From: Deltaproteobacteria bacterium
GTDB lineage: Bacteria > SAR324 > JACQKK01
Assembly: GCA_029858505.1 (NCBI GenBank)
Contig: JAOUEW010000001.1
Coordinates: 372,001-436,000, forward strand
Reading direction: 5' to 3'
Length of the DNA: 64,000 nucleotides
The translations under genes and the position numbers were made by a program. Below the pieces are notes generated by a model, which worked only from the letters and a program-made list of their open reading frames with translations, ran no database searches and was not told the DNA's origin. Every line of letters starts with the position of its first letter. Position 1 is the stretch's first letter. Shown here piece by piece: positions 11,640-31,660 of this stretch.

Positions 11640-12140
11640 TCATTCCATCACCGGCCAATTTGGCTGGAAGGCTTCCAGGGCTTCCGGCGTGGCCAGCGTG
11701 TCTAGCCCCACCGTGGCGGGAAGGTCCCGCAGGGCTTGCCGGGCCAGGGCCAGCCGACTTTCCTGGGCGGCTTGGCCGGTCTCCTTCGCCCGTAATATCA
11801 ATCCATCCGTTTCCGCCAGTCTCTTGTTTCGCTCCGCTCGAATCTCCGCCATCTTCTGCGCCCTGGCCAGGGGCATGTCCACCACGATATTCTTTACCCC
11901 TCCCGTCTCATGTTCTCTCCAACAATTGCGAAACGCCCGGCTTTGGGGCAGGTTGGCGGCCTCTTCCACCCAAACATTCAAAGCGTCCGGTGGCACATCC
12001 TTTCCTTGGACGTGAGCGATGGCGTCCAGTTCGGTTTTATCCGCGTTGGCGGCCAGCCATCCGGCAATATACGCTGGCGATGGAATGACAATCGCCAACC
12101 CACCATCTGATCTTGTGTACACAATGCACTTCGTGGTCAT
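11640..12140 (-). CDS. Phage tail fibre assembly chaperone-like protein
   Basis: 166 residues. The C-terminal half carries the pattern of tail-fibre assembly proteins: a helix with RAERNKRLAETDGL, then SRLALARQALRDLPATVG and a closing FQPNWP. These match the R-D-x-x-L, YRQALRDLP and W-P signature of the phage tail assembly chaperone family. The position directly downstream of the fibre gene agrees. ATG 12140 (MTTKCIVYTRS) was chosen over an upstream extension. It would help fold or attach the fibre protein. Confidence 0.7.
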   Translation of the reverse strand: MTTKCIVYTRSDGGLAIVIPSPAYIAGWLAANADKTELDAIAHVQGKDVPPDALNVWVEEAANLPQSRAFRNCWREHETGGVKNIVVDMPLARAQKMAEIRAERNKRLAETDGLILRAKETGQAAQESRLALARQALRDLPATVGLDTLATPEALEAFQPNWPVME

Positions 12141-12150
12141 GGCTCTCTCG

Positions 12151-12936
12151 CTAGTTTCCGTGAATGTCGACAGACACGTTTGTATAATCACCAAGGGTTG
12201 TTGTCCTTGTATCCCCCGTAAAAATTTTGCACTGGGTTGTCGTTTTAAGCGGAGAAACAGTAGCTAACCAAACAATTCCAGGGGCCTCCATGTTTCCTGA
12301 AAGTGTGTAGTTTGCGTCGGCCAGGGCGGTGGCAAAATGGATGATGTAAGTGCCTACGCCTAAATCACTGATCGTTGAAATGTTGAATGCCGCTAAAATT
12401 GCCGGGGTCCCCGTTCCATTGAAATGGATCCAGGCCTTGGGAATGTTGTTTTTATAAAGCGTATACGCCGCCGGGGTGGCCGAGGAGGCGAGGCTGACCT
12501 GCACGGCTCCCGTGGAAAATTGAGTCACCGTCATGGCGGCCAGGGAAGCCACCCCGGTGGCTAATAAATTTCCCGTGGAGAGATTGCCCAGCGAGGCAGT
12601 GCCCGTGACCATGGCGTTTCCGGCCGACAGGGAAGAGAAGGAAGCAGGTCCAGTGATCAAGGCGCTGCCCGCGTTAAGGGCGCCGAGCGAACTTACCCCC
12701 GTTACCACCGAGGCATTGGCAAACACCACCCCCACCGAAGCCACCCCGCTGGTTTGGAAATTCCCCACGGTCAGGCTTCCCAGAGAAGCCTGACCGGTGA
12801 CCATGAGGCTGCCCACCTGAATGGGCGGTGCGCCAGAATTCCCCGCGGCCAGGGCCCACAGGTTGTCTCCCATCTGCCGGACCATGGCGGCCGTAAGGCG
12901 GCTGCCAAGGGCCGGGCTTACCACATCCCATGCCAT
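12151..12936 (-). CDS. Phage tail fibre protein with tandem beta repeats
   Basis: 261 residues. The N-terminus (AWDVVSPALGSRLTAAMVRQ) is a typical virion-attachment segment. Residues 40-150 are about six imperfect repeats of 16-18 residues built on V/A-x-T-G-x-A-S-L-G-x-L-x-x-G-N, a beta-helical or triple-stranded fibre shaft. The C-terminal 110 residues form a probable receptor-binding or trimerisation tip (PKAWIHFNGTG, FATALADANYTLSGNMEAPG). Such C-terminal domains occur in many phage fibres. It lies 10 bases upstream of the assembly chaperone. Confidence 0.75.
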   Translation of the reverse strand: MAWDVVSPALGSRLTAAMVRQMGDNLWALAAGNSGAPPIQVGSLMVTGQASLGSLTVGNFQTSGVASVGVVFANASVVTGVSSLGALNAGSALITGPASFSSLSAGNAMVTGTASLGNLSTGNLLATGVASLAAMTVTQFSTGAVQVSLASSATPAAYTLYKNNIPKAWIHFNGTGTPAILAAFNISTISDLGVGTYIIHFATALADANYTLSGNMEAPGIVWLATVSPLKTTTQCKIFTGDTRTTTLGDYTNVSVDIHGN

Positions 12937-12960
12937 GTTGGTTTCTCCTGAAGTTGGCCC

Positions 12961-13413
12961 TTACAGCAGGGCGTTGAAGGTTTGGTCCAGCAGCCCCAAC
13001 AGGGGATCATCCAGCCGAAAGGGCCGCCCACTGAGTGGCTGTTCCGCTTCTGCCTCTAACGTCAGCTCTCCTTGAAAAACATCGGAGTAGGGTTCCCGCA
13101 GGCTGTGGAGGGGCGGGTGATCTCCGGTCAGGTACCCCGTTAGGGTGCTGGCTTGGTGGGAGGTGTTCAGGGTGAGGGCCATGCGGTGACCCTCTCGCCA
13201 CCAACGATTCAGCCGCTCCTGGTCCGCCCGGTCCATCCAATCCAGCGGAATCCGCACTTGCCGATACACCGCCCAGGTTTGGGCGTACAACCGGCCAGAG
13301 AGGGTGCGGAGGTCGGCCTCTAAACGCAGAGATCCCTGGGTCATGTCCCATCCCAGGGGCAAGGCCAGCTCCCAGGGAGAATCGGTCAGCGAGGTGAGGA
13401 GGCAGTCTCCCAT
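12961..13413 (-). CDS. Phage tail protein, small paralogue of the 13490-14335 C-terminal domain
   Basis: 150 residues. The segment GRLYAQTWAVYRQVRIPLDW, then ERLNRWWREGHRMALTLN, and a late FQGELTLEAE align with the C-terminal domain of the next gene upstream (LNEWWQEQHRLVFHEN, WEGTLTLEGL). The two genes therefore share a domain used in tail-tip proteins. No enzyme motif is present. It is probably a structural component between the hub and the fibre. Confidence 0.6.
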   Translation of the reverse strand: MGDCLLTSLTDSPWELALPLGWDMTQGSLRLEADLRTLSGRLYAQTWAVYRQVRIPLDWMDRADQERLNRWWREGHRMALTLNTSHQASTLTGYLTGDHPPLHSLREPYSDVFQGELTLEAEAEQPLSGRPFRLDDPLLGLLDQTFNALL

Positions 13414-13489
13414 GGCGTGGATTCCTTTTATAGAAAGAAAAAAGAATGAATGCTTTGGAAGGATTATGTTGAGGATGGAGGGTGAACCG

Positions 13490-14335
13490 TTAGCGGAAAG
13501 ACAACTCTCCTCCGGTGAGTCCTTCCAGGGTAAGGGTTCCCTCCCACCGGTCAGATTCGCCCGTGACCCGCTTCCAGACCGGCTGGCGGCTGCCGCCCAG
13601 GCGGCAAATCATCACGGCTTCCGGGTCTGCCGAGTTTTCATGAAACACCAAGCGGTGTTGTTCCTGCCACCATTCGTTCAGTTGGGCCGCGTGAGAATCG
13701 CTCAACCAGGAAAGAGAGAGCTGAAACCCCTGGGCAACGGCCCCGGCCCCCACAAACATTTTGGCCGACCCAGAGCGCTCGGCGTAGCCCATCCAGCGGC
13801 CGGTTCGTTTCAAGTCCCATCCGGGCACCAGGGGAATGGGATCGGCTTCCACCAGCACGTCATCCAGCCACCAGGTGGAGGTTTGGCTGTGCCCGCCAGT
13901 GCGGGCCACCTGGAACAGGGGGAACAAACCGTGGCTGGTGACTAGCCCCGCCAGGTCAAAGGCGTGGAGCATTCCGTCGGCGGGCAAGACCCATTCGTTG
14001 GCGGCCAGGGAGGATGTCCACAACCTTGCGGTGTAACTGCCTGAATCGGCCCCGCCAGCCCGGAACCAAAACCTTGCCCGCAGGGTATGGGTTTGCACCT
14101 GGGAGAAAAACGGCTGGGTTCCCCCATAGGCAAAGGAGAACCCAGGCTGGGCTAGGCCGGTGGAAAAGGCATGGCACACCAACCCCCAGGCCGAGGAATG
14201 CACCCCGGCCACCAAAAAAAAACTGGCTTGATCGAACGCCGAAGACTGCCAGCCGGAGGGCAGGGCCCCAGCCTGGGGCAGGTCATCAAAACTTTGGTTG
14301 GTGCCCAGCAGGGCGCCCAGGGAATAGCCGCTCAT
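13490..14335 (-). CDS. Phage tail protein with jelly-roll-like N-terminal domain
   Basis: 281 residues. Residues 15-165 look like a carbohydrate-binding jelly roll: short beta strands rich in aromatics (TLRARFWFRAGGADSGSY, WWLDDVLVEADPIPLVPG). Residues 170-281 match the neighbouring 150-residue tail protein (LNEWWQEQHRLVF; TLTLEG). ATG 14335 (MSGYSLGALLG) is preferred over the GTG four codons upstream. Together with the propeller and fibre it forms the adhesion end of the tail. The sugar-binding role is inferred from fold-like features only. Confidence 0.6.
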   Translation of the reverse strand: MSGYSLGALLGTNQSFDDLPQAGALPSGWQSSAFDQASFFLVAGVHSSAWGLVCHAFSTGLAQPGFSFAYGGTQPFFSQVQTHTLRARFWFRAGGADSGSYTARLWTSSLAANEWVLPADGMLHAFDLAGLVTSHGLFPLFQVARTGGHSQTSTWWLDDVLVEADPIPLVPGWDLKRTGRWMGYAERSGSAKMFVGAGAVAQGFQLSLSWLSDSHAAQLNEWWQEQHRLVFHENSADPEAVMICRLGGSRQPVWKRVTGESDRWEGTLTLEGLTGGELSFR

Positions 14336-14384
14336 GGGGGGGCTCACAAAATGAAGCTGGGTTCATAACACCGGTAGCGCAGGG

Positions 14385-16466
14385 TTACCGCACCGGCGGT
14401 GGGATAAGACACAAAGGCGTCCAGGGTTTCCCCCGATCCGGGCTGAAGGCAATGTTTCCCTGAAGATTGATCCAACTGTCTTCCTCCCAGTGGGAACCCT
14501 GATCGAAGGTGCGGTAGACCATGCCCCCATACCCGATGTTATTTTGGTCGAAGGGCAGCAGGGTGACCCCCGAGGAGATGTCCCACGCCTGAAAAAAACA
14601 AATGCCAGACAACACGTTGGTCCAAACCGTGGAGGAGGGGGCCCATGTTTTCGAACGATAGAGGCCCACCTCTGAAATGCCATTGCCTGAAATCCCCACC
14701 AGGGTTTCCCCATCGCTTGTGGCATGCATGCCATGAACAAATCCCTGGCGGGAGGTGACGATGGTGTGTTTATTTGCCCAACTGGCCCCGGAATCGGTGG
14801 ATTCCCAAATATCCACGGCGCCATAACCGGGGTAATTCATCCCGGTTCCGCCCCAAATCACCCCGGGGGCGGGGGAATAAAAACGAGAAAGGTAAAAAAA
14901 ATAACTGATGGTATGGGTGACAGCCCAGCTGGAACCCGCGTCGGTAGACCGCCAAATGCCTCCGTTGGCGGCCCCCGCCAGCAGGGTTCCGCTGCAGACT
15001 TCGAACAAGTCGTAGACCTGTGCCACCCCTGGGGCCAGCGAGCAGACGGTGGCAAAGGATATGCCGCCATCGGAAGAGCGTTGAATGACCGCTTGGCCAG
15101 ACCCGGAAGAGGGGGGCCCCGCCAGAACCAAGCCGCCCCCAGACAACACCCGCAAGGCACTGCCGAAATGGGACAGGGGGTTGAAGAACCCCGCGGAATC
15201 GGTGCGGAACAAGCGAGGCCCCCCCAACAGGCTGCCCAGGGCCACAAAGTCTTCCGACCCCACGGCTTGCAGGGTGTGGGGCCACAGGGCGGCAGAGGCC
15301 ACCGTGGAAAGGTACTCCCAGCGCGGATGGAAGGCCTCGGTCAGCGTCAGCGCGGTTTGCCCCCCCGCCAAGTCAATCTCCATGCCGCTGACCCTGAGCA
15401 ATGCCTGCCCCTGGGGGAACAACGAATGGGTCAGGGTGAGCACATCTCCCACCGAATAGGCGAACCCGAACCCCAGGGGCATGCGGGCGCGGAGGGTTTT
15501 GCCGGGGCGCCCGCCCTGGCGCAGCCTGTTTTGCACCAGCCCGTAGGCGTCTATCCCCCGGGCAAACCAGATTTGCGTCTGGCCGTATTGGTTAGAGCGG
15601 CGCCCGAAGGCTTCTACCGAGCGGGAGTTTACCCGGGTATGACTGGAGTAAAACCGCCGGGTTTGGGGCAGATACAGCACGTTCATCTGGATATCGTTCT
15701 CGACCTGGGTAGGGTCTACCGACAATTCCAGGCTGAGCAGGTCTTGGGGGTCTAGCCGGGGCGGCACGCCCAGGAAGGGAACGTTCCTGGGTTTAAAGGT
15801 CAGCCGCCCGTTGTCGAAGGCGATGGCCCGTTGGTCTAAAAAGGCCAGGTGGGCCAATACCCGGTAGAGTTTTTCTCCGGTCAACTGGGCCTGCACCCGG
15901 ATGTCTTGAATCAGGTTTTCCTGGCGCCAAGCCTGCCAGCCCGGATAGTCCAGGTCGGGGTTATTGCTGCCCGCCAGGGAAGACATTCCCCCGTATTGGG
16001 TGGTGAGCAGCCAAGCCAGGTCGGCTGGATAGTATTGGCTGCCAGTGAAGGAAAGCTCTTGAGAGGTGACTTGGCTGCCCAGGGTAATGTCGGTGAGCCG
16101 TTGGGTGGAGGCTTGCAATTGCAGCCGCAGTTCTTTTCCTTCCCGAGAAAACGCTGCGTGGCTGGGGGTGCCCTGATACAGCGGAATCCATTCTGGGCCG
16201 CTAAGCGGATGGGTTAACCCCAGACTGATTTCGCCAGGAAGGGTCAGGGCCAAGTCGCAGCCCACCAGAAAGGTAAACGGCCCCTGGTCGTTGGCCAGGG
16301 TGAGCTGGGTGGTGCCGAGGTCAATGGAGTCATCTTTGTAGGCCAGCACTGGCCAGCGCAGTACCCGGTCAGACCAGTCGCGGTCCCCCAGGGTGAACCG
16401 CCGCTGCCAGCGCACCCGCTGGCTTTTGGCGGTGGACAAAAACCAACTGGAGACGGAGGTCATCAT
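14385..16466 (-). CDS. Tail hub/tip protein fused to an Asp-box beta-propeller
   Basis: 693 residues in two parts. Residues 1-390 look like a baseplate hub or tail-tip protein (FTLGDRDWSDRVLRWP, LGFGFAYSVGDVLTLTHSLF). From about residue 400 on there are repeated Asp-box motifs, S-x-D-x-G-x-S/T-W: SSDGGISF, STDAGSSW, STDSGASW, TFDQGSHW. Asp boxes mark sialidase-like beta-propellers; the catalytic Arg triad is not evident, so binding rather than cleavage is likelier. The ATG overlaps the tape-measure stop (ATGA). It probably carries the receptor-binding part of the particle. Confidence 0.72.
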   Translation of the reverse strand: MMTSVSSWFLSTAKSQRVRWQRRFTLGDRDWSDRVLRWPVLAYKDDSIDLGTTQLTLANDQGPFTFLVGCDLALTLPGEISLGLTHPLSGPEWIPLYQGTPSHAAFSREGKELRLQLQASTQRLTDITLGSQVTSQELSFTGSQYYPADLAWLLTTQYGGMSSLAGSNNPDLDYPGWQAWRQENLIQDIRVQAQLTGEKLYRVLAHLAFLDQRAIAFDNGRLTFKPRNVPFLGVPPRLDPQDLLSLELSVDPTQVENDIQMNVLYLPQTRRFYSSHTRVNSRSVEAFGRRSNQYGQTQIWFARGIDAYGLVQNRLRQGGRPGKTLRARMPLGFGFAYSVGDVLTLTHSLFPQGQALLRVSGMEIDLAGGQTALTLTEAFHPRWEYLSTVASAALWPHTLQAVGSEDFVALGSLLGGPRLFRTDSAGFFNPLSHFGSALRVLSGGGLVLAGPPSSGSGQAVIQRSSDGGISFATVCSLAPGVAQVYDLFEVCSGTLLAGAANGGIWRSTDAGSSWAVTHTISYFFYLSRFYSPAPGVIWGGTGMNYPGYGAVDIWESTDSGASWANKHTIVTSRQGFVHGMHATSDGETLVGISGNGISEVGLYRSKTWAPSSTVWTNVLSGICFFQAWDISSGVTLLPFDQNNIGYGGMVYRTFDQGSHWEEDSWINLQGNIAFSPDRGKPWTPLCLIPPPVR

Positions 16467-17407: not shown

Positions 17408-17560
17408 CAGGGTTCCTTGGTGAGTTCCGGAGGAAAACGGCGAAAGGATCAAACTTCATTTGTAGCCCCCTCCATCCCCATTCTTCTGCCATGGGAGGTT
17501 TTGTTCAGCGGGGGATCAGATCAGAAAACCTGTGATGGTGGTTCTTGGGGGTGAGAGGTG

Positions 17561-17747: not shown

Positions 17748-18557
17748 TCAAGGCTGGCCCCAGATGCGCCGTAACCCCTGGCGGCCCTCACCGGGGCGGC
17801 CCGTCCAAGTGCGCTCGGTATCCTCTCCAAACCGCCATTGGAAACGGACCACTTTTCCCTGGGCCGCCACATACAAAAACAGGGCCTTGGTGGCGGGAGT
17901 AAGGGCCTGAGCGGGAAACACCACCCTGGGCCGCAGGGTGAATTGATCGGGCAGGGGCATCTCTCCCTTGCGCTCGTGGCCGCGGTCGCCGGGAATGTAT
18001 TCTCCCCGGCCATATTCGTCTTCGACTTTGATGGGGTAAAACTTGTTCCCGGCATCGTCCATCAGGTACAGCCCCTGGCGGGCAGCATAGGTCGACAAAA
18101 ACAAATCTCCCCGCTCCGGGCCAATCAACTCGCCATCGAACACCAAGCCTTCCTTGAACAGTGTTTCCCGTTGGGTTAGGGCGGCTTCATGCTCGGCGGG
18201 GCTTTGGGAGTAAGCCACCCGGTCCTGTTCCAGCCGCATGGCTTCCACGGGCCACATCACCAGGGTAAAGGTGGAGCGGGAATGGAACGCGTTCCAATCG
18301 CCCAGCTTTAGCGGATTGGTTTCCGCTGGAACGGTGTACAACCGCATCAGTTGGGCCGGGGGGACATCCGGCTGGAGCTCCTGGGGGTGGGGAACGATAC
18401 GGGGTGCCGAGGACAGGCAGCCCGCCAGCAGACTGACCAACAGCCCGGACCAAATCCCTCCCAACCCCCACCCGGCCCACGAAGCCCCCCCTTCCCCCTT
18501 TTCACGGCAAAACCCCGGGTGATGCAGAGATCTCGTTTTTGGCTGTGGATGGTTCAT
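17748..18557 (-). CDS. Predicted lipoprotein embedded in the tail module
   Basis: 269 residues. A lipobox is clear: WSGLLVSLLAGC, with the cysteine near residue 47. The long n-region before it is partly encoded by a copy of the dispersed GCCGTGA repeat. The mature part is a beta-rich domain (STFTLVMWPVEAMRLEQDRV, GLYLMDDAGNKFYPIKVEDE). Nothing resembles a tail protein, so this may be a cargo (moron) gene acting in the host envelope, perhaps in superinfection exclusion. ATG 18557 is the only ATG that fits; the start is uncertain. Confidence 0.6.
   Translation of the reverse strand: MNHPQPKTRSLHHPGFCREKGEGGASWAGWGLGGIWSGLLVSLLAGCLSSAPRIVPHPQELQPDVPPAQLMRLYTVPAETNPLKLGDWNAFHSRSTFTLVMWPVEAMRLEQDRVAYSQSPAEHEAALTQRETLFKEGLVFDGELIGPERGDLFLSTYAARQGLYLMDDAGNKFYPIKVEDEYGRGEYIPGDRGHERKGEMPLPDQFTLRPRVVFPAQALTPATKALFLYVAAQGKVVRFQWRFGEDTERTWTGRPGEGRQGLRRIWGQP
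18490..18534 (-). repeat. Dispersed GCCGTGA repeat, copy 2, inside a coding region
   Basis: On the minus strand this reads TCTCTGCATCACCCGGGG, then TTTTGCCGTGAAAAGGGGGA, matching copies at 10514 and 34926. It lies in the 5' part of the lipoprotein gene and encodes residues near LHHPGFCREKGEGG, before the lipobox. Thus the repeat contributes coding sequence or arrived by insertion near the start of that gene. Confidence 0.65.
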
Positions 18558-18589: not shown

Positions 18590-18847
18590 TCAAGCCGGGG
18601 ATGTATGCTTGTTTTCAAGGTTCATCCGCTGGTGCTCATCGGCCAGGATGTGAAAGGCCTGCACCCGGTGCCAGGGCTGGGCCAGCAGCGGCAGGCCATC
18701 GGGCCATTCCACGCGCTGCCAGCCGCCCCTTTGGGGAAAATGACACCAGGCAAACAACCGCAGGGTTTCCGAATAGGGGCGGCCCCCTGGGCCATTGCCA
18801 GTGGGCAGGGGGTACCCCAGCCGCGCCAAGCGGGCCGCCCGTCTCAG
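18590..18847 (-). CDS. Tail assembly chaperone, -1 frameshift extension (G-T)
   Basis: An 85-residue extension without its own start, in the -1 frame relative to the gene at 18844-19209. It begins LRRAARLARLGYPLPTG right after the slippery heptamer and ends ENKHTSPA. In lambda-like and Mu-like tails, the short protein and its frameshifted longer form chaperone the tape measure. The location between tube and tape measure genes, and an absence of a convincing start codon, fit this reading. The lipoprotein gene follows after 32 bases. Confidence 0.72.
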   Translation of the reverse strand: MRRAARLARLGYPLPTGNGPGGRPYSETLRLFAWCHFPQRGGWQRVEWPDGLPLLAQPWHRVQAFHILADEHQRMNLENKHTSPA

Positions 18848-18853
18848 TTTTTT
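18777..18853 (-). promoter_or_regulatory. Programmed -1 ribosomal frameshift signal
   Basis: The heptamer A-AAA-AAC (18847-18853, minus strand) lies in the zero frame as GAA AAA AAC just before the TGA stop. Six bases further on, GGGCGGCCC (18832-18840) can pair perfectly with GGGCCGCCC (18777-18785), a nine-bp GC stem with a 46-base loop. Slippery site, spacing and stem together match known tail-chaperone frameshift sites. Confidence 0.8.
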
Positions 18854-21488: not shown

Positions 21489-24463
21489 TAGAAGTACCTT
21501 TCTTGGAACACCTCGGTTTTTTCTTTGAGCAGCAGGCCCATCAACCGGTGGATGTCTTCGGATTCGGCAAAGCGCCCAGAGACCCTGGGCAGGGGCTGAC
21601 CGGGGCGGTCGCCCAGCCCATCTTTGAAGGCCCCCAGTTCGGCCTCGAAGGCAATGCCCCCCTGGGCCAGCAGGGCTGCCGCTTCGGAGTAGTAAGGCAG
21701 GCTGTCCAGGGCCAGGCGGGTGTGGCCCTCGGCGGTTAAGGCCCGCCACATGGCTACAATTTGCCTGGCCCTGGCCTCCATGGCGGGGGTGACCACGGCC
21801 ATGGCCCCGTCAGTCTGAGACTCTTGGTCGTAGCGGATAAGATGGGCCAAGTCGCGGATCCATAGAAACCGGCCCAGCAGCCGTTGGGGATATTTTTCCC
21901 GGTCTCGAATCATCAGCGGCAGGTTGCGGGCAAACCGCTGGCGGCGCACGGCCTCGGTTTCATACCCGTTGTGGCAAATGGCCACGTCGGGCAGCAGCAT
22001 CACCGCCCCCAGGCCTTGGTTCAATTCCCGCTCGGGGTGTTCGTGCACCACCCCGAAAAACTTCACCCCCGGAACGCGGCGGAACAGCCGGCAGGGATAG
22101 TCGGTTTTCAAAATGCCCGCGGGCTCTACGGCATAGTGGTGCTGCTTCACCGCGTATCCGGCGAAGGCGTTCGGCCGCAGGTATTTCCACAGCCGTTCGG
22201 GCCATTCCAGCACCTCATCGTCGTCCAGCCACAAAATCCAGTCGCCCTCGGCCCGGGCCAGGGTTTGGTTGCGGGCTTCATCAAACCCCGTTTCCAGGGG
22301 AGACCGCAGAGAGAATGCCTGAGCCCCGTACCGCCGGGCAATTTCCCAGGCGGGGGCGTTGGGGTCTCCCTGGTCATCCAGCCCCAGCACCAGTTGGGCG
22401 GCCATGGGTTTCACGCTTTCCAGGGCCCGGGCCAGGGTGCGGCCATGGCCCGCCGCCACCATGCACACGCTGACTGTTTCCGGGGGTGCTTGGCGGGTGA
22501 GTTTTTCAGTGGGGTTCAGGGCTTGAGAGGGCCGACCCCCCGCCTGCCAAGTCATTTGATACACCCCCAGGGGTTCTCCCAGGGGGGTAAACCCATGGGG
22601 AACCGCCAGTAAGGAAAAGCCCGGCTTGTGCCCCCACATGGTTTCCAGATCGGCCCGTTCCAGGTGGTGAATATGGGCCCGCAGGGGGCAGGTTTCAAAA
22701 ATGGCCGCCTCCCAGGGGCCGTAGGGCACGGTGAGGCACAGGGTTCCTCCAGGGGCCAGACGGCGCTCTAATTGGTCGGCCAGTTCCCAGGGGCGGGGGG
22801 TGTGCTCCATCACTTCCAGGGCCAGCACCAAGTCAAAAGTTCCCCCCAGGTTGGCGGCCTCGCCGTGGCTGAAGAACAGATGGGTCAGCCCTTCTTTTTC
22901 GGCATGGGCGCGGCCCACCGCCACCGCGGCGGCGGAGATGTCAATTCCCGTGAAGCGCAGCCGGGGAAACCGGCGGGCCAGGGCCAGGGTGAAATGCCCT
23001 TGCCCACAACCGTAGTCCAGCACCCGGGCGTTTTCCGGCAGGGCCGCCACGGGCTCTGCCGCCACCTGAAACCTGGGCATGGCCCACAGACCTTCTGGGT
23101 GAACGATGCCGGGATCTTCTCCCCCTTGCAGGTGGTGGCGGGTGAGGGCCTCGTTATGGGTCGGGTAGTTGTTGTTTTTCACAAACCCGTAATGCGTTGC
23201 TAGGTCTTGAACAACGTTTTGGCCGATGGGGCCGGTCAAACCTTCCTGGCCCAGGGGAGATTCGGCCAGGGCGGTCAGGGGGAAAATATCGGAATGGCGC
23301 AGCAGGTGCCGGGCCAGCCGAGATGGACTGGCGCACCGTTCAGCCAGGATTCGCTCCGCCAAAGAAACCATGCCGCTGGCCGAGCGAGCCCAATCGTAGC
23401 GGGGGGCGGCTTGGCGGCAGCGGCGGTGGAGGCCCGCCCATGTTTCCGGGGCTTGTTTCAACCGCAGAATTTCTTCCGCCAAGCGGGCGGCCAGGGTGTC
23501 GGGGGCCGGGTCCAGCCAAACCACCCCCCCATCCCGCAGGGTTTCCGGCAGGGCTGCTACCGGGGTGGTGAGGATGGGGGTTCCCGCCCCCTGGGTTTCC
23601 ATGGCGGTGATGCAGCTCACTTCCTCAAAGGCCGTGGGGTACAGGTGCAGCCAGGCGTTTTCCATCTGCCGGGCCAGGTCTTGCTTCGACAACGCCCCGG
23701 CCAACTCCACGTTGGGCAGTCGGCGGCAGCGCTCCCACAGGGCCTGGTACAACCCCGCCATGGCAGGGGTGGTGTTTTCATATCCAGCCACCACCAGTTT
23801 CAGTTCCGGGGCCGAGCGGGCCAGCCGCTCCATCACCCCGCCGGGGCCCACCAAATATTCCAATCCCCGCTCTGGGCGGGAGGAATACATCATCCGGCCC
23901 CCTGCCAGCCGCCGGGAGAATTCCTCTTCTGGAGTGCCAGCTTGTTGGGGCGGCAGATACAAACCGTGGTCAATGCCGTTGGGAATGACCTCCACCACTT
24001 CCGGGGAGAACCCATACACCTGAACAATTTGTTGTTGGTGAAAGGCCGAGACGGCCAGCACCCGATCTACGTTCCACATTTGCCCAGCCACCGAGGGCAG
24101 GTGGCGCTTCAGGGCCAAGTCATGGGTCCACCAAAAATTCACCTTAGAGGCATAGGGGCGGTGAAAGGCCATGGGGGCCCGCTGAATCACCAACAGATCG
24201 TGGGGAGTGTGGGAAGCGTACCATTCAAACCGCTCTCCCAGGGGGCTTTGCCCCGTGGGCGTACCCGCCGACAGGTAGCGGACCCCGTCCCACACGCCCT
24301 CTTCTTCTGGGGTAATTTGGGTGAACAGGGTGACTTGGTGGCCATGGCGGGCCAGCTCCCGGGCCGTATAATAGGCGGCACTTTCAGAACCCCCCAGGCT
24401 TTTTCCCTGGGCCAGGGTGCCGCCATGGAAGGGAATTCCGGGGCAGAGGATCACGATGTTCAT
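21488..24463 (-). CDS. Three-part glycosyltransferase (GT4) - methyltransferase - glycosyltransferase (GT2) fusion
   Basis: 991 residues. Residues 1-360: GT4-type transferase with a GGSESA nucleotide-sugar loop (KSLGGSESAAYYTARELARH) and a C-terminal E-x7-E block (FEEVSCITAMETQGAGTP). Residues about 470-620: SAM-dependent methyltransferase (RVLDYGCGQGHFTLALARRF, EVMEHTPRPWELAD). Residues 660-900: GT2 family (VSVCMVAAGHGRTLARALES, WILWLDDDEVLEWPERLWKY) with the metal-binding DDD. It lies between capsid and head-completion genes and would decorate virion protein or cell sugar. There is no signal peptide. Substrates are unknown. Confidence 0.85.
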   Translation of the reverse strand: MNIVILCPGIPFHGGTLAQGKSLGGSESAAYYTARELARHGHQVTLFTQITPEEEGVWDGVRYLSAGTPTGQSPLGERFEWYASHTPHDLLVIQRAPMAFHRPYASKVNFWWTHDLALKRHLPSVAGQMWNVDRVLAVSAFHQQQIVQVYGFSPEVVEVIPNGIDHGLYLPPQQAGTPEEEFSRRLAGGRMMYSSRPERGLEYLVGPGGVMERLARSAPELKLVVAGYENTTPAMAGLYQALWERCRRLPNVELAGALSKQDLARQMENAWLHLYPTAFEEVSCITAMETQGAGTPILTTPVAALPETLRDGGVVWLDPAPDTLAARLAEEILRLKQAPETWAGLHRRCRQAAPRYDWARSASGMVSLAERILAERCASPSRLARHLLRHSDIFPLTALAESPLGQEGLTGPIGQNVVQDLATHYGFVKNNNYPTHNEALTRHHLQGGEDPGIVHPEGLWAMPRFQVAAEPVAALPENARVLDYGCGQGHFTLALARRFPRLRFTGIDISAAAVAVGRAHAEKEGLTHLFFSHGEAANLGGTFDLVLALEVMEHTPRPWELADQLERRLAPGGTLCLTVPYGPWEAAIFETCPLRAHIHHLERADLETMWGHKPGFSLLAVPHGFTPLGEPLGVYQMTWQAGGRPSQALNPTEKLTRQAPPETVSVCMVAAGHGRTLARALESVKPMAAQLVLGLDDQGDPNAPAWEIARRYGAQAFSLRSPLETGFDEARNQTLARAEGDWILWLDDDEVLEWPERLWKYLRPNAFAGYAVKQHHYAVEPAGILKTDYPCRLFRRVPGVKFFGVVHEHPERELNQGLGAVMLLPDVAICHNGYETEAVRRQRFARNLPLMIRDREKYPQRLLGRFLWIRDLAHLIRYDQESQTDGAMAVVTPAMEARARQIVAMWRALTAEGHTRLALDSLPYYSEAAALLAQGGIAFEAELGAFKDGLGDRPGQPLPRVSGRFAESEDIHRLMGLLLKEKTEVFQERYF

Positions 24464-25543
24464 TCAGGCTCCTTCAAACAGGGGTTCCCAACATTGGGCG
24501 ATGACGTCGTTCCAGCCGTGAACTGGCAGGTCGGGGGAGCAGGCCATGGTTGGCCTGGGTTCGGGGTGGCCCGCCAAAAAATTGTGGAAATCCCAGCGAT
24601 TCGCTGCGTGTGTTTCCAGGTCGCCTAAAAAGGGCGCCACCAGCCGCGTGCCGCTCCAGGCGGCCCGCAGCAGATTCACCACCAGGGCTTCGCGGCCGCA
24701 AAGGGGGGCCGGGTGCAGCCAAAACCGGGCTTGGTGAAACGCCCGCCAAACATCCATCACGGTGGGGTCTTCCGTTTGAACAATCCCTGGCTGGACCAGG
24801 GCCTGCTCCAGGCGCGCCAGCCAGGCGGAACCTCCCTTGGCCTGGAACCCCGCCCACAACCGGCGGGGAGACACCACCTCCAGCGTGATGTGGGGGTGGA
24901 CTTGGCGGATGGAAGGCCACAGGGCCAGCAGTTGCTCCAATCCCTGGTCTGGGGGGCCAGCGAACACGGCCCGTTCAGAGACGGGGGGTTCCGCCGGCAG
25001 CAGCAGCGGCGGGGTGATGGCCAGGGGCGCCACCCGGTGAAAACGCTCCCCGCCCAAGAATGCAGCCGAAAGGGCATCCATGGCCCCGGCCCCCCAACTG
25101 GTGACGTAACGATCCACCCGGTTCATCCAGGGCTGGGGGGTGGAGATGTCTCCATGGTGTTCTGGGGCCAGTGGCTCCCAGTGAATCCGCTGGTGGGCGT
25201 TCACCGGCATGGCCCACAACCGGGGGCAGCGCCAGCTAATGAGCACATCCCTGGGCTCCTGGGGGCGAAAGGCCCCCAGGGGCAAGTATTCCACCCCATG
25301 GTGCATCCACCCGGTGCCCCGGGGGGCGTTGTGAAACACCCGCACCCGGTGGCCCCGGGCCGCCAGGGCCTGGGCCCAGTCGGACAGCAGTTCTTCCAAA
25401 CCCCACCAGCCTTGGTCGGCATCCAGGGGTGTCCACCCGCCGGGAACATACGCGCACCACACATCCACCGTTCGGGCGGGGTGCCCCGCCACAGGGCTGA
25501 CCCAGGGGCTGAAGGGAGCGGGTTGAGGCAGCAAGGTTTCCAT
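24464..25543 (-). CDS. Glycosyltransferase-like protein (GT4-type)
   Basis: 359 residues. N-terminal Rossmann-like region (TVDVWCAYVPGGWTPLDADQ, WAQALAARGHRVRVFHNAPR) and a C-terminal region with VSERAVFAGPPDQGLEQLLA, matching the layout of the larger GT4 module, then FHQARFWLHPAPLCGREALV. The Glu-x7-Glu motif is degenerate, so it may be a partner or divergent transferase rather than an active enzyme. Its TGA directly abuts the ATG of the 991-residue fusion. A 139-base gap with a strong hairpin separates it from the capsid gene. Confidence 0.65.
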   Translation of the reverse strand: METLLPQPAPFSPWVSPVAGHPARTVDVWCAYVPGGWTPLDADQGWWGLEELLSDWAQALAARGHRVRVFHNAPRGTGWMHHGVEYLPLGAFRPQEPRDVLISWRCPRLWAMPVNAHQRIHWEPLAPEHHGDISTPQPWMNRVDRYVTSWGAGAMDALSAAFLGGERFHRVAPLAITPPLLLPAEPPVSERAVFAGPPDQGLEQLLALWPSIRQVHPHITLEVVSPRRLWAGFQAKGGSAWLARLEQALVQPGIVQTEDPTVMDVWRAFHQARFWLHPAPLCGREALVVNLLRAAWSGTRLVAPFLGDLETHAANRWDFHNFLAGHPEPRPTMACSPDLPVHGWNDVIAQCWEPLFEGA

Positions 25544-25625: not shown

Positions 25626-25651
25626 ACCGGGGCGGAACTCCGCGCCCCGGT
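25626..25651 (-). promoter_or_regulatory. GC-rich hairpin between capsid and glycosylation genes
   Basis: ACCGGGGCG (25626-25634) and CGCCCCGGT (25643-25651) form a perfect 9-bp stem with an 8-base loop just after the capsid stop. No T-run follows on the minus strand, so this is an mRNA-stabilising or attenuating hairpin rather than a classical terminator. It would let the capsid be made in excess over the glycosylation enzymes. Confidence 0.45.
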
Positions 25652-25682
25652 TTCCATCGCCAGTCCAACAGCCCTCCAGCCC

Positions 25683-26648
25683 TTACAGCGTGCTGGAGGT
25701 AACGTTGCTCACCAAAAAGCCCAGGGGCTTGGCGGTGATCACTTCATCTTGGTAGTAGCCAATCTCGACCTCGGTGCATTTGCGCCGGGGGTCGTAGGGG
25801 TGGCGTTCCACCTGCATGTTGGGCACTTCCGAAGAACTCCATCGGAAGTTGTACCCGAAGGAGGGTGTTTCCATGCTGGGTTGGTCGGGCGCGTAATACA
25901 CCACCACGTGGTCGCCCCAGATTTGCTTCAAGTTGATGGGCAGGCCTTCCTGGGCCGTGTTGCGCCAGGCGTTGCCTACCAGCACCTTCATTTCCAGCAG
26001 GTCTTCGGCCTGGGAGACGCTGGGGTAACCGCCGCCCCCCGACACATGGGGGTTGACCGCCCGGTTGACCACCTTGGTGCTGCGGCGGAAGTGCCGCCAG
26101 GCCGTGCCAGAGAACAACACCCGGTTGGGCCGGAAGCCCGTGGCGGTCTCGACGTTGTCAACCGCCGTCAGCAGGTCGGTGAGGGGGTCGGCGTTCACGT
26201 GGTCCGTCCACGATGAGCCCACCGCTTTGAAGGACCCCACGTTGCTGGGGGTGGTGAGCAAGTCGGCCAGCCGGGTTTCCCAGTCGAGGAACAGGCCGTC
26301 TTGCAGACGCATCACCCGCCCTTCTTCAAACTGCCGAACGAACAGGGGGTCGGCGTTGGCCCGGTCTTCCAGGGTCACGTCGGACTTGAGGGCGTAGTTC
26401 ACGCAGTAAAACCCAGCGGAAGACACCCGGGTGTGGGTTTTGTTGGCCTCCCCGCCCCGGGCGCGCAGGGTGCGCTCTTGGCGGAACAAGTCGTCTTGCT
26501 CAAAAATCACGTAGGTATCGGACTGTTTGGGCACCAGCACGGTGGGCAGCACGCTGCTGGCAATGAACCCCGCCGGACGGTAGTTCAATGCCACGTTCGA
26601 CAAATGCTGGTCCACGTGCACGGCTCTTCCTTGGAGGTAATCGCTCAT
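25683..26648 (-). CDS. Major capsid protein (HK97-like, by position)
   Basis: 321 residues. Order (after decoration gene, before head completion genes) and length fit a major capsid protein. The N-terminal arm (SDYLQGRAVHVDQHLSNVAL) and LRARGGEANKTHTRVSSAGF, followed by a spine-helix-like segment (VETATGFRPNRVLFSGTAWR), resemble HK97-fold capsids. No long scaffold domain is present; the preceding protease-like gene may provide it. The ATG abuts the decoration stop (TAA ATG). Confidence 0.78.
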   Translation of the reverse strand: MSDYLQGRAVHVDQHLSNVALNYRPAGFIASSVLPTVLVPKQSDTYVIFEQDDLFRQERTLRARGGEANKTHTRVSSAGFYCVNYALKSDVTLEDRANADPLFVRQFEEGRVMRLQDGLFLDWETRLADLLTTPSNVGSFKAVGSSWTDHVNADPLTDLLTAVDNVETATGFRPNRVLFSGTAWRHFRRSTKVVNRAVNPHVSGGGGYPSVSQAEDLLEMKVLVGNAWRNTAQEGLPINLKQIWGDHVVVYYAPDQPSMETPSFGYNFRWSSSEVPNMQVERHPYDPRRKCTEVEIGYYQDEVITAKPLGFLVSNVTSSTL

Positions 26649-27050
26649 TTAGGCAAGCTCCCCGATGTGGCCCATGTAGGCCGTGGTGGCGAAGTTGAAC
26701 AGCCCGGTGCCCACGCCGCCAGAACCCACGTCGGCGTCTAGGCAGCGGCCCACCACGTAACTTCCGCTGGCGGCCTCGGAAAAATAACCGGACTGGGTGA
26801 CGGTGAGGCGGCGGCCTTTGGCCACGGGCGCCCCGGCGGTGAATTTCATCACCCCCCAGGTGCCCAGGGAAACCGGCTCTCCCGATTTTCCGCCGTACAA
26901 CAAAATGCCCCCGGCCTGGCGGCCGTTGGAGGCAATGGTTCCGGTGTCCAGCGCCACGGCTTTGAAGATGGCACCGGTGCCCGGGCGCAAATCGCTTAGA
27001 TCGCCCCCGGCCTGGATGGCCCAGGAATGGTTGTGTCCTTCCACAGACAT
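26649..27050 (-). CDS. Capsid decoration/cement protein
   Basis: 133 residues, beta-rich and glycine-rich (AIQAGGDLSDLRPGTGAIFK, GLFNFATTAYMGHIGELA). Small proteins encoded just before the capsid gene in Mu-like and related phages stabilise the shell. The segment VVGRCLDADVGSGGVGTG resembles DUF2190-type capsid proteins, in which a similar A-x-x-x-G-R-x-L-D/E motif recurs. Assigned by position and composition. Confidence 0.62.
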   Translation of the reverse strand: MSVEGHNHSWAIQAGGDLSDLRPGTGAIFKAVALDTGTIASNGRQAGGILLYGGKSGEPVSLGTWGVMKFTAGAPVAKGRRLTVTQSGYFSEAASGSYVVGRCLDADVGSGGVGTGLFNFATTAYMGHIGELA

Positions 27051-27054
27051 AGGT

Positions 27055-28068
27055 TTAGGCTCCCCAATGGGCGGTGAGGGTGTAATCCCGGTAGGCCTGG
27101 GCCAATTCCGGGTCGGTTTTCAACACCAGTTCGGCGGCCTGGCTGTAAGACAAATGCTCCGCGCTCATGCGGGCTGAAGCCAGCCGGGCCAGCCGTTGGG
27201 AGGGATCTTCATCCTCTCCGGTGAAGGCGGCGGCCGAGCGGGCCGCCCCCTGTTCTCCCGCGGGCAGCCGGGGCACGGCGCCGGAGAGAAACTCTCGCAC
27301 CCATGCCCAGGACACCCGGGGGGAATCTTGCTCGGAAAACGAGGCGGACGGGTTGTTCATTTCGGCCGCCAGTTGCTGAAACAGGTAAGGAGGCAGTTTT
27401 CCCTCCCCCACGGCTTGGCGGGCGAAGGTCAGCACCGCTTGGTGGTGGTCTGGTTCACCCTGGGCATGGAAAGCCCGCGCTTCCGTGGGGGGAGTTTGTT
27501 CTGGCCCATGGGTCACCGCCCAGGTGAAGGTTTGGACCAAGCCCCAGTCGGTGGAGGAGGGCGGTGGGGTAAGATATACCGCCAGGTCCTGAAGGTTGGT
27601 GACCGCCGGAAGGTCGGCCCCCAGCAAGGCCACTGCCTTGAGGGCTTTGCCCAGGGACTGGCCGTTTTGGCGGACCTGGGTGTAGATTTCCGCGCTGACC
27701 CGGCGGTAGCGGCCCTGGGAAATGGCTTGCCACACCACCTCGGGCATGTGGGTGAAGGACGCCATCAGTTTGTCGCCCGCCACCCACAGCCGCTCCACCC
27801 AGCCCAGGGATGGGTCCCCATCGGCTTGGCCGGTGAGGGTGGCGCCAGCCGGAGTTTGACCGACTGCGGCTTGACGAACAGATGTGGGGGCCGATACCGG
27901 TTGAGCGGGATCGTGGCCGAATTTCAACGGGGGTTTCAGCTCATCCTTCAATCGCTCGAAGTTAGCGGCCAGCTCTTCCAAATCTTGACGGGTGAAGGTC
28001 TGGCCGTTCCAGGTGCCAACGCTGAAAATTTCGGCCGATAAAGAACGGCTGGGTTGGGTGGGGGTCAT
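27055..28068 (-). CDS. Phage I-like prohead protease/scaffold
   Basis: 337 residues. The N-terminus EIFSVGTWNGQTFTRQDLEE, then ANFERLKDELKPPLKFGHDP, is the signature of Mu gpI-like proteins, in which a serine-type protease domain is followed by a helical scaffold. Residues 200-337 are helical and charged (GEDEDPSQRLARLASARMSA), a likely scaffold. The ATG overlaps the portal stop (ATGA). It should mature and shape the prohead together with the capsid. Confidence 0.78.
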   Translation of the reverse strand: MTPTQPSRSLSAEIFSVGTWNGQTFTRQDLEELAANFERLKDELKPPLKFGHDPAQPVSAPTSVRQAAVGQTPAGATLTGQADGDPSLGWVERLWVAGDKLMASFTHMPEVVWQAISQGRYRRVSAEIYTQVRQNGQSLGKALKAVALLGADLPAVTNLQDLAVYLTPPPSSTDWGLVQTFTWAVTHGPEQTPPTEARAFHAQGEPDHHQAVLTFARQAVGEGKLPPYLFQQLAAEMNNPSASFSEQDSPRVSWAWVREFLSGAVPRLPAGEQGAARSAAAFTGEDEDPSQRLARLASARMSAEHLSYSQAAELVLKTDPELAQAYRDYTLTAHWGA

Positions 28069-29312
28069 GGCTGCTCCAAGGGGATGGCGGGGGGAAGAGG
28101 CACCCCCAGCAGTTCACGGATTCGGGTTTCATCTTGGGGTTCTGGTTTTACCGCGCCAGCGCGCACCGCGTCGGTCCAGGCCCGCACCAGTTCCCGTTTC
28201 TGCTCTTCGGTATGGGGGCTGAAACGGAACCGGGGTGGTTGGGCCAGGCCGAAGTTCCACCAGGCCAACTCCTTGAACAACTGCTCGTTCAGGGTTTCGG
28301 CCAGAGTGTCGGCCAGGGCGTTCATGATCAGGAAGAAAATATCCTGATGGGTCTGGCTTTGGCTGTAACTTCCCTGGCTGCCCTGCTCCGACAGCCCCAG
28401 CAGGTTCGGCACCAGCAGGGCCTTGGCCATGGCTTTGTCTCTGGCCGCCACCGCCCGTTCAAAGGCATCGGTCGAGGGGGCGCTGACCATGGACAACTCT
28501 ACCCCCGCGGGGGTGATGAGAGATGTTTGCCCAGATACTCCCTGCATGGCGGCTTTCAGCTCTTCCCGTTCTTCGGGGGTCAGGGGGGCGGTGATTCGCC
28601 CGTGGATGAACCCGGAGGCCATCCGTTCCAGGTACAGGTTCCAGAAGGCCAGAATGTTTTCCTTGGCCCACCAGTGCCGGTAACAAGCCTTCAGGTCGGA
28701 TTCCCCGTACAGCGGGTCCACATCGGGCTGGTTCACGTGATGGATGAACCGGGCCAGGTCCAGTTCTGCCCGGGTGCTGCCCTGGTATTGCAGCAGACCG
28801 GTGCAATTGCCGTGGGGGTCGGCCTGAAAGGTGAACGATTCCGCCGGGCGGAGTTTAAGACTTTGAATGCCCCACAGGGTTTGGCCCCGCCACTCCACCT
28901 GGCCATATACTTTTTCGGTGAGGCTAAACCCGTACACCTGGCTAGAAAGCATTTGCCCCAAGGCCTGAATGAAGGACCCGGCCAGTTGATCTTCCAGCAG
29001 ATGGCGAAAGAACCCGGCGCATTCTTGATGCAGAGGGCTGTCGGCGGGGGTGTCGAAATGCCAAGCCCGCCCGGTGACCATGGCGGTTTTCAGGCGCACC
29101 AGGGCTCGAATCTGGTCGTCGGACATCATTTTTCGATACAACCGGTACCCCCGCTGGGCCACCAAGCTGTCTGGGTTCCAGCGTTCCATGGGCACTTGGC
29201 CGAAGAATCGGCCAAAGCCCCAGGCGGTTTCTCCGGGAGCCGACGGTGGCGCGGGGACTGCCGCCGGGGGGTCTCCCAGCCAGCCCCGCAGGGTTTGGAA
29301 AGTTTTAGACAT
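28065..29312 (-). CDS. Portal protein (DUF935, Mu gp29-like)
   Basis: 415 residues. Characteristic segments: IRALVRLKTAMVTGRAWHF, the conserved SLTEKVYGQVEWRGQ and ARFIHHVNQPDVDPLYGESD, with LARDK-like AARDKAMAKALLVPNLLGLS near residue 310. This is the twelve-subunit vertex through which DNA is packaged. Start ATG 29312 (MSKTFQTLRG) overlaps the terminase stop by 8 bases. Mu-like DUF935 portals fit the Mu-like head gene order seen here. Confidence 0.9.
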   Translation of the reverse strand: MSKTFQTLRGWLGDPPAAVPAPPSAPGETAWGFGRFFGQVPMERWNPDSLVAQRGYRLYRKMMSDDQIRALVRLKTAMVTGRAWHFDTPADSPLHQECAGFFRHLLEDQLAGSFIQALGQMLSSQVYGFSLTEKVYGQVEWRGQTLWGIQSLKLRPAESFTFQADPHGNCTGLLQYQGSTRAELDLARFIHHVNQPDVDPLYGESDLKACYRHWWAKENILAFWNLYLERMASGFIHGRITAPLTPEEREELKAAMQGVSGQTSLITPAGVELSMVSAPSTDAFERAVAARDKAMAKALLVPNLLGLSEQGSQGSYSQSQTHQDIFFLIMNALADTLAETLNEQLFKELAWWNFGLAQPPRFRFSPHTEEQKRELVRAWTDAVRAGAVKPEPQDETRIRELLGVPLPPAIPLEQP

Positions 29313-30564
29313 CAAGTTCACGGGACACCATGGGTTTTCCAAGGATGAATCCCTGGCCCTGCCCGGGAAGGGCGTGAACACACAAGGCCAAGGCAAACAC
29401 GCAGTCGTCGTGGCTTCCCGACGGGTGGTCGGGGCGGCCCTGGGTCAGGCGGAAGTTCTCCAGTTCCTCCAGGGTTTCCGGGTGAGGAAACAAGGTGAAC
29501 CGCCCCTGTTCCAGTTCCATGGCCAGCCGGTCTAACAACTGGCGGCGCACGGCTCCGGTAATGACCACCGGGCGGACGGGCAGCCCCTGGGCGGCCATTT
29601 CTTCGGCCACCGGGTCGCCCGCACCGGTGGCATCCACCACCAACGGCGCTTGGTTGAACCGCCGGGAGAGGTCTCCCAGGCGGCTGATTTGTTGGCGCCA
29701 AGCGGTCTGCTTGAAACGCTCGCACCAGACCCCCCGGCGGGGGTGCAGCCGGGCCACCCAGGCCACCGTGTAGTCGGCGCGGCGGGCCAGGTCTACCCCG
29801 ATGACATAGGCGCTGCCGGGCTGACCCGATGTTTCGGGCGCCCCTTGGGCCGCCTTGCGGGGCTCTCGGAAGAAAGCCCCTTCGCTCTCCACGAATTCCG
29901 CCAGGATTTCCTGGCGGAATTCTCGCTCGGGCATGTGGGATTCCATGTGGGCCAGCATGTCGCGGCTAAGCAGGGTATTCACGTGAGACGGATGGCGGAA
30001 GCTTTTCCAATCCGGCTTGCTGTCGGCTTGCCCCCAGGCGAACATTTGTTGAAACAACCCCGGCCCCTTGGGAGAGCCGATGATGAACCAGCGGGCCCCT
30101 TGGTTTTCTGCCCCCATGGGAAACAGCGTTTCCCAAAACAAAGCGGGGTCTTGCAGCACAATGCCGGCCTCGTTGATCCAGATGTAGTCGTAGCCAAACC
30201 CCGCCAGCAGATCGGGCCGCTGGGCCGAAACGAAATCGCAATAGCTGCCGCTGGGAAAATTCAACACCCGCTGGCTGGCCTGCCAGCGAAAATCGGTGCC
30301 CTCCAACAGGGGCCGGAAGTAGCGGCTGACCAGCTTGGCAATGTTGCGGTGCACAGGCTCTACCCACAGATGGCGGGAGCCGGGGTGCTCTTGCTGGGCG
30401 ATTTCAACCAGCCGAAACACGGCACCTTTGGTTCCCCCCGCCCGGCGGCCCTTGACGTACACCACGAACCGCTCTTCGGCATCGAACACTTGTTTCTGGT
30501 GGGGCAGGTAGGGCAATTCAATCCGCGTCTTTCGCGGGGTGTGTTTCTTCTCCTTTCGTTCCAT
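29305..30564 (-). CDS. Terminase large subunit (Mu-like)
   Basis: 419 residues. ATPase domain: GRRAGGTKGAV at 39-49, a Walker A variant without the classical lysine position, as in some Mu-type terminases, and YDYIWINEAG as Walker B. Nuclease domain: VIGVDLARRADYTVAW, then LVVDATGAGDPVAEEM, and SHDDCVFALAL supplying acidic metal ligands. It packages DNA through the portal. ATG 30564 is preceded by GAGG. It overlaps the small subunit by 47 bases. Confidence 0.9.
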   Translation of the reverse strand: MERKEKKHTPRKTRIELPYLPHQKQVFDAEERFVVYVKGRRAGGTKGAVFRLVEIAQQEHPGSRHLWVEPVHRNIAKLVSRYFRPLLEGTDFRWQASQRVLNFPSGSYCDFVSAQRPDLLAGFGYDYIWINEAGIVLQDPALFWETLFPMGAENQGARWFIIGSPKGPGLFQQMFAWGQADSKPDWKSFRHPSHVNTLLSRDMLAHMESHMPEREFRQEILAEFVESEGAFFREPRKAAQGAPETSGQPGSAYVIGVDLARRADYTVAWVARLHPRRGVWCERFKQTAWRQQISRLGDLSRRFNQAPLVVDATGAGDPVAEEMAAQGLPVRPVVITGAVRRQLLDRLAMELEQGRFTLFPHPETLEELENFRLTQGRPDHPSGSHDDCVFALALCVHALPGQGQGFILGKPMVSRELDV

Positions 30565-31096
30565 CGGCCTCAATCCGGATGACCTGCACGGTGTGTTCGT
30601 GGGACGGGTTGTCCTCCGCCAGTTCGGTGAGGCAATGGTTTTGGGCGGTGACGCTGCCCTGAATGGCCGCTTGATAACGGGCCAGTTTGACTTCCGCGGC
30701 CCCCAAAGCCCGGCCCCGGCGCACGGCTTGTTCCACTGCCTGCCGCAGGGCCGGGGGCATGGGCCCCCGCCAGCGCAGCTTGGCCAGAATTTCTCCCAGG
30801 TTCAGCCCGGCGGAAGCCCATTGCTCGGCCTGCCAGGCCAGGTCGTCTGGCGTCATGGCTTCCCGCGCCTCCGGTTCATCCCCCGGCTCCTGGGCGCCAC
30901 CCGCTGACTGGGGCCGTTCCGGCAGGGGGGAGGGCATGTCTCGTTCCGTCAGCACCCCGGTGGGTACGGGGTGTTTGTAAGCGTTGGATTCCAGTCGGAG
31001 GATTCCCCGCGGAGTTCTTTTTCTTGCTTTTGGTCGGGGTGCCCTTCCGGTTTCTCTCCTGCCTGTGTGATTGCCTCTGCCCTTGCCCGCTGCCAC
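30518..31096 (-). CDS. Terminase small subunit (inferred)
   Basis: 192 residues. The GTG at 31096 is preceded by AAGGAGG at an ideal 5-base distance, so this start is well supported. The N-terminal third is basic and Pro-rich (likely DNA-binding or disordered). Residues 80-165 are helical: WQAEQWASAGLNLGEILAKL, then ALRQAVEQAVRRGRALGAAE, which includes the helix-turn-helix-like segment expected of a small terminase. Assignment rests on position and layout. Confidence 0.62.
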   Translation of the reverse strand: MAAGKGRGNHTGRRETGRAPRPKARKRTPRGILRLESNAYKHPVPTGVLTERDMPSPLPERPQSAGGAQEPGDEPEAREAMTPDDLAWQAEQWASAGLNLGEILAKLRWRGPMPPALRQAVEQAVRRGRALGAAEVKLARYQAAIQGSVTAQNHCLTELAEDNPSHEHTVQVIRIEADGTKGEETHPAKDAD

Positions 31097-31138
31097 GCCC
31101 GCCTCCTTGCTGGGTGTTGAAAGTTCACGCCACGGTGG

Positions 31139-31660
31139 TTATTCCATCCAGCACACCGCCCCGCCGCGGGGCCGGGGTCGCACGTCCAGGTGCACTGTCA
31201 ACCGGGCGGGGTAACGGCCCACGCCCCCAATCTGCCTCACCTGCTGGGCCGCCCCGGCCAACTCCGCAACCTCTTCCAGGGAGCCGCAGCGGATGTCGGC
31301 CGCCATGCCCCGGGTGTGATAGGACCGGGGCCGCCCCCCCGCCAACCGGTGCCAGGGCTTGCAGTGAAACCCCGCCGCCAAGGCCAGCGGGCGGCCCAGC
31401 ATCATGCGCAGGGTTTGCAGGGCCAGCACCAGCCGGGGGTGCACCAGGGTATGGGTGCAGGTCTTGTCTCCACAGGGGCAATGGAAGGCCCCCAGGGTAA
31501 AATCATTACTTAAAGTCGTATCCAAGCCCTTGGGGTATAGCCACAACACCTCCCCATCGGGTCCTGGATCCGTCCGGGTATAGCCCGGTGGGGTGTTCCA
31601 GGAGGGTTGGGAAAGAACATGGCTCTGCTGAGAACCTTCCGAATTAAAATCATCCATCAT
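31139..31660 (-). CDS. M15-type (DUF882-like) peptidase, candidate endolysin
   Basis: About 173 residues. Zinc ligands: H and D in HTRGMAADI, and H in LTVHLDVRP, the H-x6-D...H-x-D pattern of the M15 D-Ala-D-Ala carboxypeptidase family. Preceding text TLVHPRLVLALQTLRMMLGR and PLALAAGFHCKPWHR is typical for M15A. No signal peptide is seen; as first gene of the operon it is the likely cell-wall hydrolase. The start is uncertain (31660 or 31657); an open frame reaches 31831. Confidence 0.78.
   Translation of the reverse strand: MMDDFNSEGSQQSHVLSQPSWNTPPGYTRTDPGPDGEVLWLYPKGLDTTLSNDFTLGAFHCPCGDKTCTHTLVHPRLVLALQTLRMMLGRPLALAAGFHCKPWHRLAGGRPRSYHTRGMAADIRCGSLEEVAELAGAAQQVRQIGGVGRYPARLTVHLDVRPRPRGGAVCWME

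Follow-up and report, generated by a model that had tools for sequence, protein, structure and literature searches.

Is a compact run of virion genes in a SAR324 genome a prophage that has lost its early region, or an element resembling gene transfer agents (GTAs) and kept by the host for its particle? The window analyzed here, a stretch of 64,000 nucleotides, lies on a 982-kb contig of a 2.79-Mb MAG (hereafter G000) of the SAR324 cluster, listed in the NCBI taxonomy as Deltaproteobacteria incertae sedis. An earlier sequence-only reading had proposed a candidate GTA-like element or, alternatively, a Mu-like prophage with a recently deleted early region.

Gene Content and Organization of the Cluster

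The virion gene set covers approximately 20 kb (positions 11640–31660), is entirely encoded on the minus strand, and has all its frames open (table 1). Its products make up an entire siphovirus particle, from terminase, Mu-type portal, and protease through capsid, connector, tube, tape measure, and tip to fibres and endolysin. Read from 31660 to 11640, the genes for the endolysin and the small and large terminases are followed by those for the portal, the protease, the small head protein, and the major capsid protein. The glycosyltransferase-like gene and the gene for a 991-residue glycosyltransferase (GT) fusion precede those for the connector, tail completion, terminator, and tube proteins and the chaperone with its frameshift extension. 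The lipoprotein, tape measure, tip, two distal tail protein, fibre, and fibre assembly genes complete the cluster. The lipoprotein, encoded between the tail chaperone and the tape measure, gave a poor structure model.

The cluster is devoid of integrase, transposase, repressor, and replication genes and has no sheath gene. In the window, no direct or inverted repeat of at least 12 nt links the two ends, and no att repeats were found at both junctions of the clusters in G003, G009, and G000. The tRNA-Gly gene (33524–33596) was rejected as an attachment site, the other boundary having no copy of the tRNA end. At the left, the tail fibre assembly gene comes to within 4 bases of the FKBP gene, with its stop codon at 11640 and the end of FKBP at 11635. 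The sequence-only reading is thus borne out as regards the virion genes in assembly order with intact frames, the lack of these gene classes and of attachment repeats, and the left end abutting FKBP. Its "many" ATGA overlaps turned out to be several 4-nt overlaps. Its gene inventory stands, except that two large glycosyltransferase genes in the head module (21488–25543) had been overlooked, and ORF 18590–18937, taken for a separate gene, is the −1 frameshift extension of the tail chaperone.

Table 1. Features of the SAR324 Virion Gene Cluster and of Its FKBP-argF Flank (Positions in the Window).
Feature	Position	Strand	Evidence
Endolysin, M15 peptidase type	31139–31660	−	Peptidase_M15_3 5e-11; phrog_894 endolysin; 58% identical copy in G005 between atpE and terS
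Small terminase candidate, 112-aa core (ORF open to 31096)	30518–30856	−	Lies immediately before terL; homologues in G005, G008, G009 at same place
Large terminase, ATPase + RNase H nuclease	29305–30573	−	phrog_2 6e-34; Terminase_6C; profile match to P74-26/G20c-type TerL nuclease structures 8e-31
Portal, Mu type (PF06074)	28065–29312	−	Portal_Mu 5e-57
Head maturation protease/scaffold	27055–28068	−	phrog_976 2e-32
Small head protein, decoration/scaffold-like	26649–27050	−	phrog_673 2e-9; 65–73% identity in three genera
Major capsid protein	25683–26648	−	phrog_1005 3e-56; 72–79% identity in three other genera
Glycosyltransferase-like protein	24464–25543	−	Glyco_transf_4, weak; homologues at same place in G003, G005
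Glycosyltransferase-methyltransferase-glycosyltransferase fusion, 991 aa	21488–24463	−	GT4, Methyltransf, GT2 domains; adjoins capsid gene in G003, G005, and ~80 viral contigs
Head-tail connector (neck)	21066–21488	−	Position; 46–50% identical homologues in G005, G009; no family match
Tail completion protein	20635–21069	−	phrog_26 1e-17; Phage_tail_S
Tail terminator	20204–20641	−	phrog_37; Phage_tail_U, weak
Tail tube protein	19214–20173	−	Phage_tube_2 6e-22; 60–63% identity in two genera
Tail assembly chaperone, G-like	18844–19209	−	45–50% identity in G009, G005
Slippery heptamer A AAA AAC, programmed −1 frameshift site	18847–18853	−	In phase at the chaperone's last codons
−1 frame extension of chaperone, GT-like	18590–18853	−	40–45% conserved in G005, G009
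Predicted lipoprotein, tail module	17748–18557	−	36% identity in G005 and G009; conserved GC lipobox region; no family match
Short tape measure, 314 aa	16463–17407	−	phrog_3336 3e-20
Tail tip/hub	14385–16466	−	38–43% identity over full length, three genera
Distal tail protein	13490–14347	−	Homologues in G003, G005, G008
Distal tail protein	12961–13413	−	Homologues in G003, G005, G008
Tail fibre	12151–12936	−	phrog_11355 4e-13
Tail fibre assembly	11640–12140	−	Phage_tail_APC 1.4e-9
Host FKBP, conserved downstream flank	10991–11635	+	FKBP_C 2.5e-31; adjoins cluster also in G003, G009
Host ornithine carbamoyltransferase argF, outer flank	9520–10443	+	OTCace 1e-37; argF-FKBP-cluster also in G009

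Past the chaperone heptamer, the −1 frame runs on for about 85 residues. The heptamer occurs at the same place as A AAA AAC in G005 and as A AAA AAA in G009 and is conserved in three genera. A frameshift arrangement of the lambda G/GT type is not expected to persist in a decaying prophage over near-saturating synonymous divergence.

Conservation of the Locus among SAR324 Relatives

The relatives are fragmented MAGs, and each cluster was pieced together from separate contigs. A portal or capsid match was obtained in six of the ten genomes of the family, each belonging to another genus, and the cluster proper in five. It follows hemL-atpI-atpB-atpE, on the same strand, in G005, G008, and G009. 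In G003, atpE is followed on its contig by a gene for a possible holin, a small membrane protein, and then by the endolysin gene. At the other end, the tail genes of G003 meet a convergent FKBP gene; those of G009 run into FKBP and argF, as in the window. Both the atpE and FKBP flanks were therefore seen in G003 and G009, the atpE flank alone in G005 and G008, where G005 has argF-FKBP apart from the cluster, and the FKBP-argF flank in G000. In this last genome, the atp genes are 214 kb distant, with no virion genes there, indicating that one side of the locus has been rearranged. A Mrr-type restriction endonuclease gene (32511–33452, plus strand) lies at the rearranged boundary between the cluster and tRNA-Gly. 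A decayed Phd/RelE pair is found at 32004–32466 (plus strand); its antitoxin is shortened, and a TAG close to the start interrupts the toxin frame.

G006 has an empty atpE site, and no cluster was seen at that of G001; the contigs of G002 and G007 end too early, and these two genomes were left out of the presence/absence reading. As G006 is nested among carriers in the host tree, a loss of the cluster is implied. Contig C342 of G006 encodes a related portal (43%) in another gene context, which probably belongs to an ordinary phage of the host group.

G005 has extra tail fibre genes (L082, L084) at loci separate from the main cluster. G008 has fibre segments that are near-identical over about 120 nt and have different flanks (L014 15820–15975, L083 3030–3243, and L056 33–240), possibly reflecting fibre diversification or misassembly. 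The G008 portal that runs into fibre sequence is probably due to misassembly at these near-identical copies.

The comparison of synteny in relatives that the sequence-only reading had suggested thus returned the same locus in five genera with intact frames. No linked integrase was seen beyond the cluster on the flanks recovered, and the closest Phage_integrase-family gene in G000 is about 90 kb away.

Age, Selection, and Phylogeny of the Cluster

Substitutions were counted by the Nei–Gojobori method; synonymous sites are near saturation, and the dN/dS ratios are therefore rough. The dS of the virion genes is about that of hemL, atpB, argF, and FKBP, and their dN is well below dS. Between G000 and G003, for example, dN and dS are 0.15 and 1.22 for the capsid gene and 0.26 and 1.11 for hemL. 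By the dN/dS comparison also suggested by the sequence-only reading, the virion structural genes are under purifying selection.

Trees were built with FastTree, and topologies were compared by the AU test with 1000 RELL replicates. G000 and G003 are united in both the host and the virion trees. The virion alignment accepted the host topology (AU p = 0.24) and rejected all four tested alternatives lacking the G000+G003 group; the branching of G005, G008, and G009 is discordant between single genes. The cluster has been vertically inherited at a conserved locus, its tree being compatible with the host tree apart from this fine branching, and is as old as the host family.

Viral Relatives of the Cluster

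Comparison of the portal and the capsid with 50,697 phage records revealed no relative above 29% identity, the best values being about 28%. Scanning IMG/VR with the GT fusion retrieved 93 relatives; alignments of the capsid, portal, terminase, and tube used in the same way returned almost nothing, their short seed patterns probably being too specific. The IMG/VR contigs are predictions, some of which could be proviral. A GT-methyltransferase-GT fusion of 970–1000 aa encoded beside the capsid gene is widespread among them (L119–L198). Its role is perhaps the glycosylation of the particle.

Many of these GT-fusion siphoviruses show the same gene order as SAR324, portal-protease-small head protein-capsid-GT fusion-connector-tube-chaperone-tape measure-tip, with capsids and portals up to 53% and 52% identical, respectively, to those of the SAR324 cluster. 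However, upstream of the terminase gene, the contigs examined carry early genes for replication and recombination (NinG, NinB, nuclease, or helicase), where SAR324 has atpE. Tape measures of the cluster (314–337 residues, with 296–337 aa given for the relatives of the window) are about half as long as those of the viral relatives (593–846 aa, n = 10), and portals are also shorter (416–455 residues vs. a viral median of 745). The terminases differ as well, only one distant viral contig matching that of SAR324. In the capsid, portal, tube, and GT-fusion trees, SAR324 copies group as a single clade separate from the viruses (support 0.995–1.0).

Proposed Origin and Function

We consider it probable that the locus is an exapted, vertically inherited siphovirus-type particle cluster working like a GTA, which would package and deliver host DNA. 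Synteny, purifying selection, the lack of a linked integrase, and intact frames in relatives all support the GTA-like proposal of the sequence-only reading. An ancestral GT-fusion siphovirus would have settled between atpE and FKBP prior to the divergence of the family, then lost its early genes and been retained for its particle. The operon may be induced in a subset of cells, in which the terminase would fill small heads, bearing a short noncontractile tail, with fragments of host DNA by the headful mechanism. Endolysin and holin would then lyse the cell and release the particles for delivery.

The SAR324 terminase profile is closest to TerL of the P74-26/G20c type, which are headful packagers, so that packaging without a strict site would fit; the TerL nuclease residues are complete. 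At about 0.15 nm per residue, the 314-residue tape measure predicts a tail of about 50 nm. The holin candidate of G003 and G005 was not found in G000. About 40 kb to the right of its cluster, G000 carries a GTA_holin_3TM and amidase pair (C4:443684–444540; L029 3684–4540), rejected as a conserved lysis locus since the relatives yielded no such pair. Such holins occur in ordinary phages, and one is also encoded on contig C7 of G000 (L110/L111), a complete-looking 33.5-kb Mu-like contractile phage or prophage with a Mu transposase, a TniB-like ATPase, and a sheath.

The conservation evidence would fit equally well an exapted and selected particle with another host role, such as killing competitors or delivering proteins, rather than random DNA transfer, and the GT fusion and the lipoprotein of the operon have no known role in GTAs. 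However, a killing tail needs no DNA-filled head, and the SAR324 cluster has conserved its terminase, portal, protease, and capsid, with the full set of TerL nuclease residues; we regard such a role as unlikely. Repeated integration of related temperate phages at the atpE-FKBP site, followed in each case by loss of the early genes, is very unlikely. Site-specific phages do reuse attB sites, and G006 has its related portal in another context, but no flank seen carries an integrase or an att repeat, and the synonymous age of the virion genes is that of host genes. Moreover, the virion and host trees agree on G000+G003, and the copies are one clade relative to the viruses.

In favor of a decaying Mu-like prophage, recently deleted for its early region, are the Mu-type portal and the complete Mu-like contig in the same genome bin. 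"Recently" is refuted by the presence of the cluster in five genera, and intact frames, purifying selection, and a frameshift conserved across genera argue against decay. The relatives are, in addition, noncontractile with short tape measures, and the Mu-like contig differs in its genes and encodes a sheath. This is the least credible explanation of all. The same contig, or another phage, might instead act as the helper of a satellite, in line with the lack of replication genes. Phage satellites, however, encode integrases and regulators and retain no complete head and tail of their own, whereas the SAR324 cluster encodes both at a fixed locus in five genera with no linked integrase; mobilization by a helper appears highly improbable.

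The best reading of these sequence data is an independent and previously unreported GTA-like exaptation; the literature searched contained no account of a GTA in SAR324. We lean slightly toward a GTA that arose independently in SAR324 from GT-fusion siphoviruses and has a small-terminase solution of its own as well as a glycosylated particle. If true, this would represent an independent exaptation in uncultured SAR324 whose virus ancestors are still recognizable, and a widespread marine lineage might then be capable of GTA-mediated exchange. The idea can be checked in existing marine viromes.

Comparison with Known GTAs and Phage Mu

Known GTAs are nearly all from culturable hosts. Genetically unrelated ones are few, five by one count (PMC6821227), and three families are formally classified (PMC9662315). 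The genomic criteria used for GTAs are location, codivergence, selection, and a distinct clade (PMC9662315, PMC10883770). The SAR324 cluster agrees with them.

RcGTA-type GTAs have a head-tail cluster of about 15–20 kb and a short tape measure, as does the SAR324 cluster. Alphaproteobacterial type I GTAs (Rhodogtaviriformidae), including RcGTA, also share with it vertical inheritance, the lack of self-propagation genes, and the location of other functions at separate loci (PMC6821227, PMC9662315). Unlike RcGTA, which has an HK97-type set, the SAR324 cluster has a Mu-type portal, a phrog_1005/Cap_E-like capsid, and a GT fusion in the head module, and it resides in another host phylum. None of its virion proteins matched a GTA-specific family in Pfam or NCBIfam. 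Its predicted proteins place it outside the RcGTA family. The RcGTA small terminase is short and devoid of an N-terminal DNA-binding domain (PMC6854486). The SAR324 candidate has a short core of 112 aa and was modeled as all-helical with two N-terminal helices before a long helix (pLDDT 76) and, unlike that of RcGTA, seems to keep its N-terminal helices.

With phage Mu and Mu-like prophages, the SAR324 cluster has the portal family PF06074 in common; compared with Mu, it lacks transposase, sheath, and early genes, and its tail is noncontractile. In Brachyspira, BhGTA/VSH-1 is a 16.3-kb cluster that has codiversified with its host (PMC9662315). By description rather than by sequence, it is set apart from the SAR324 cluster by its terL, which lies outside the cluster in Brachyspira and inside it in SAR324.
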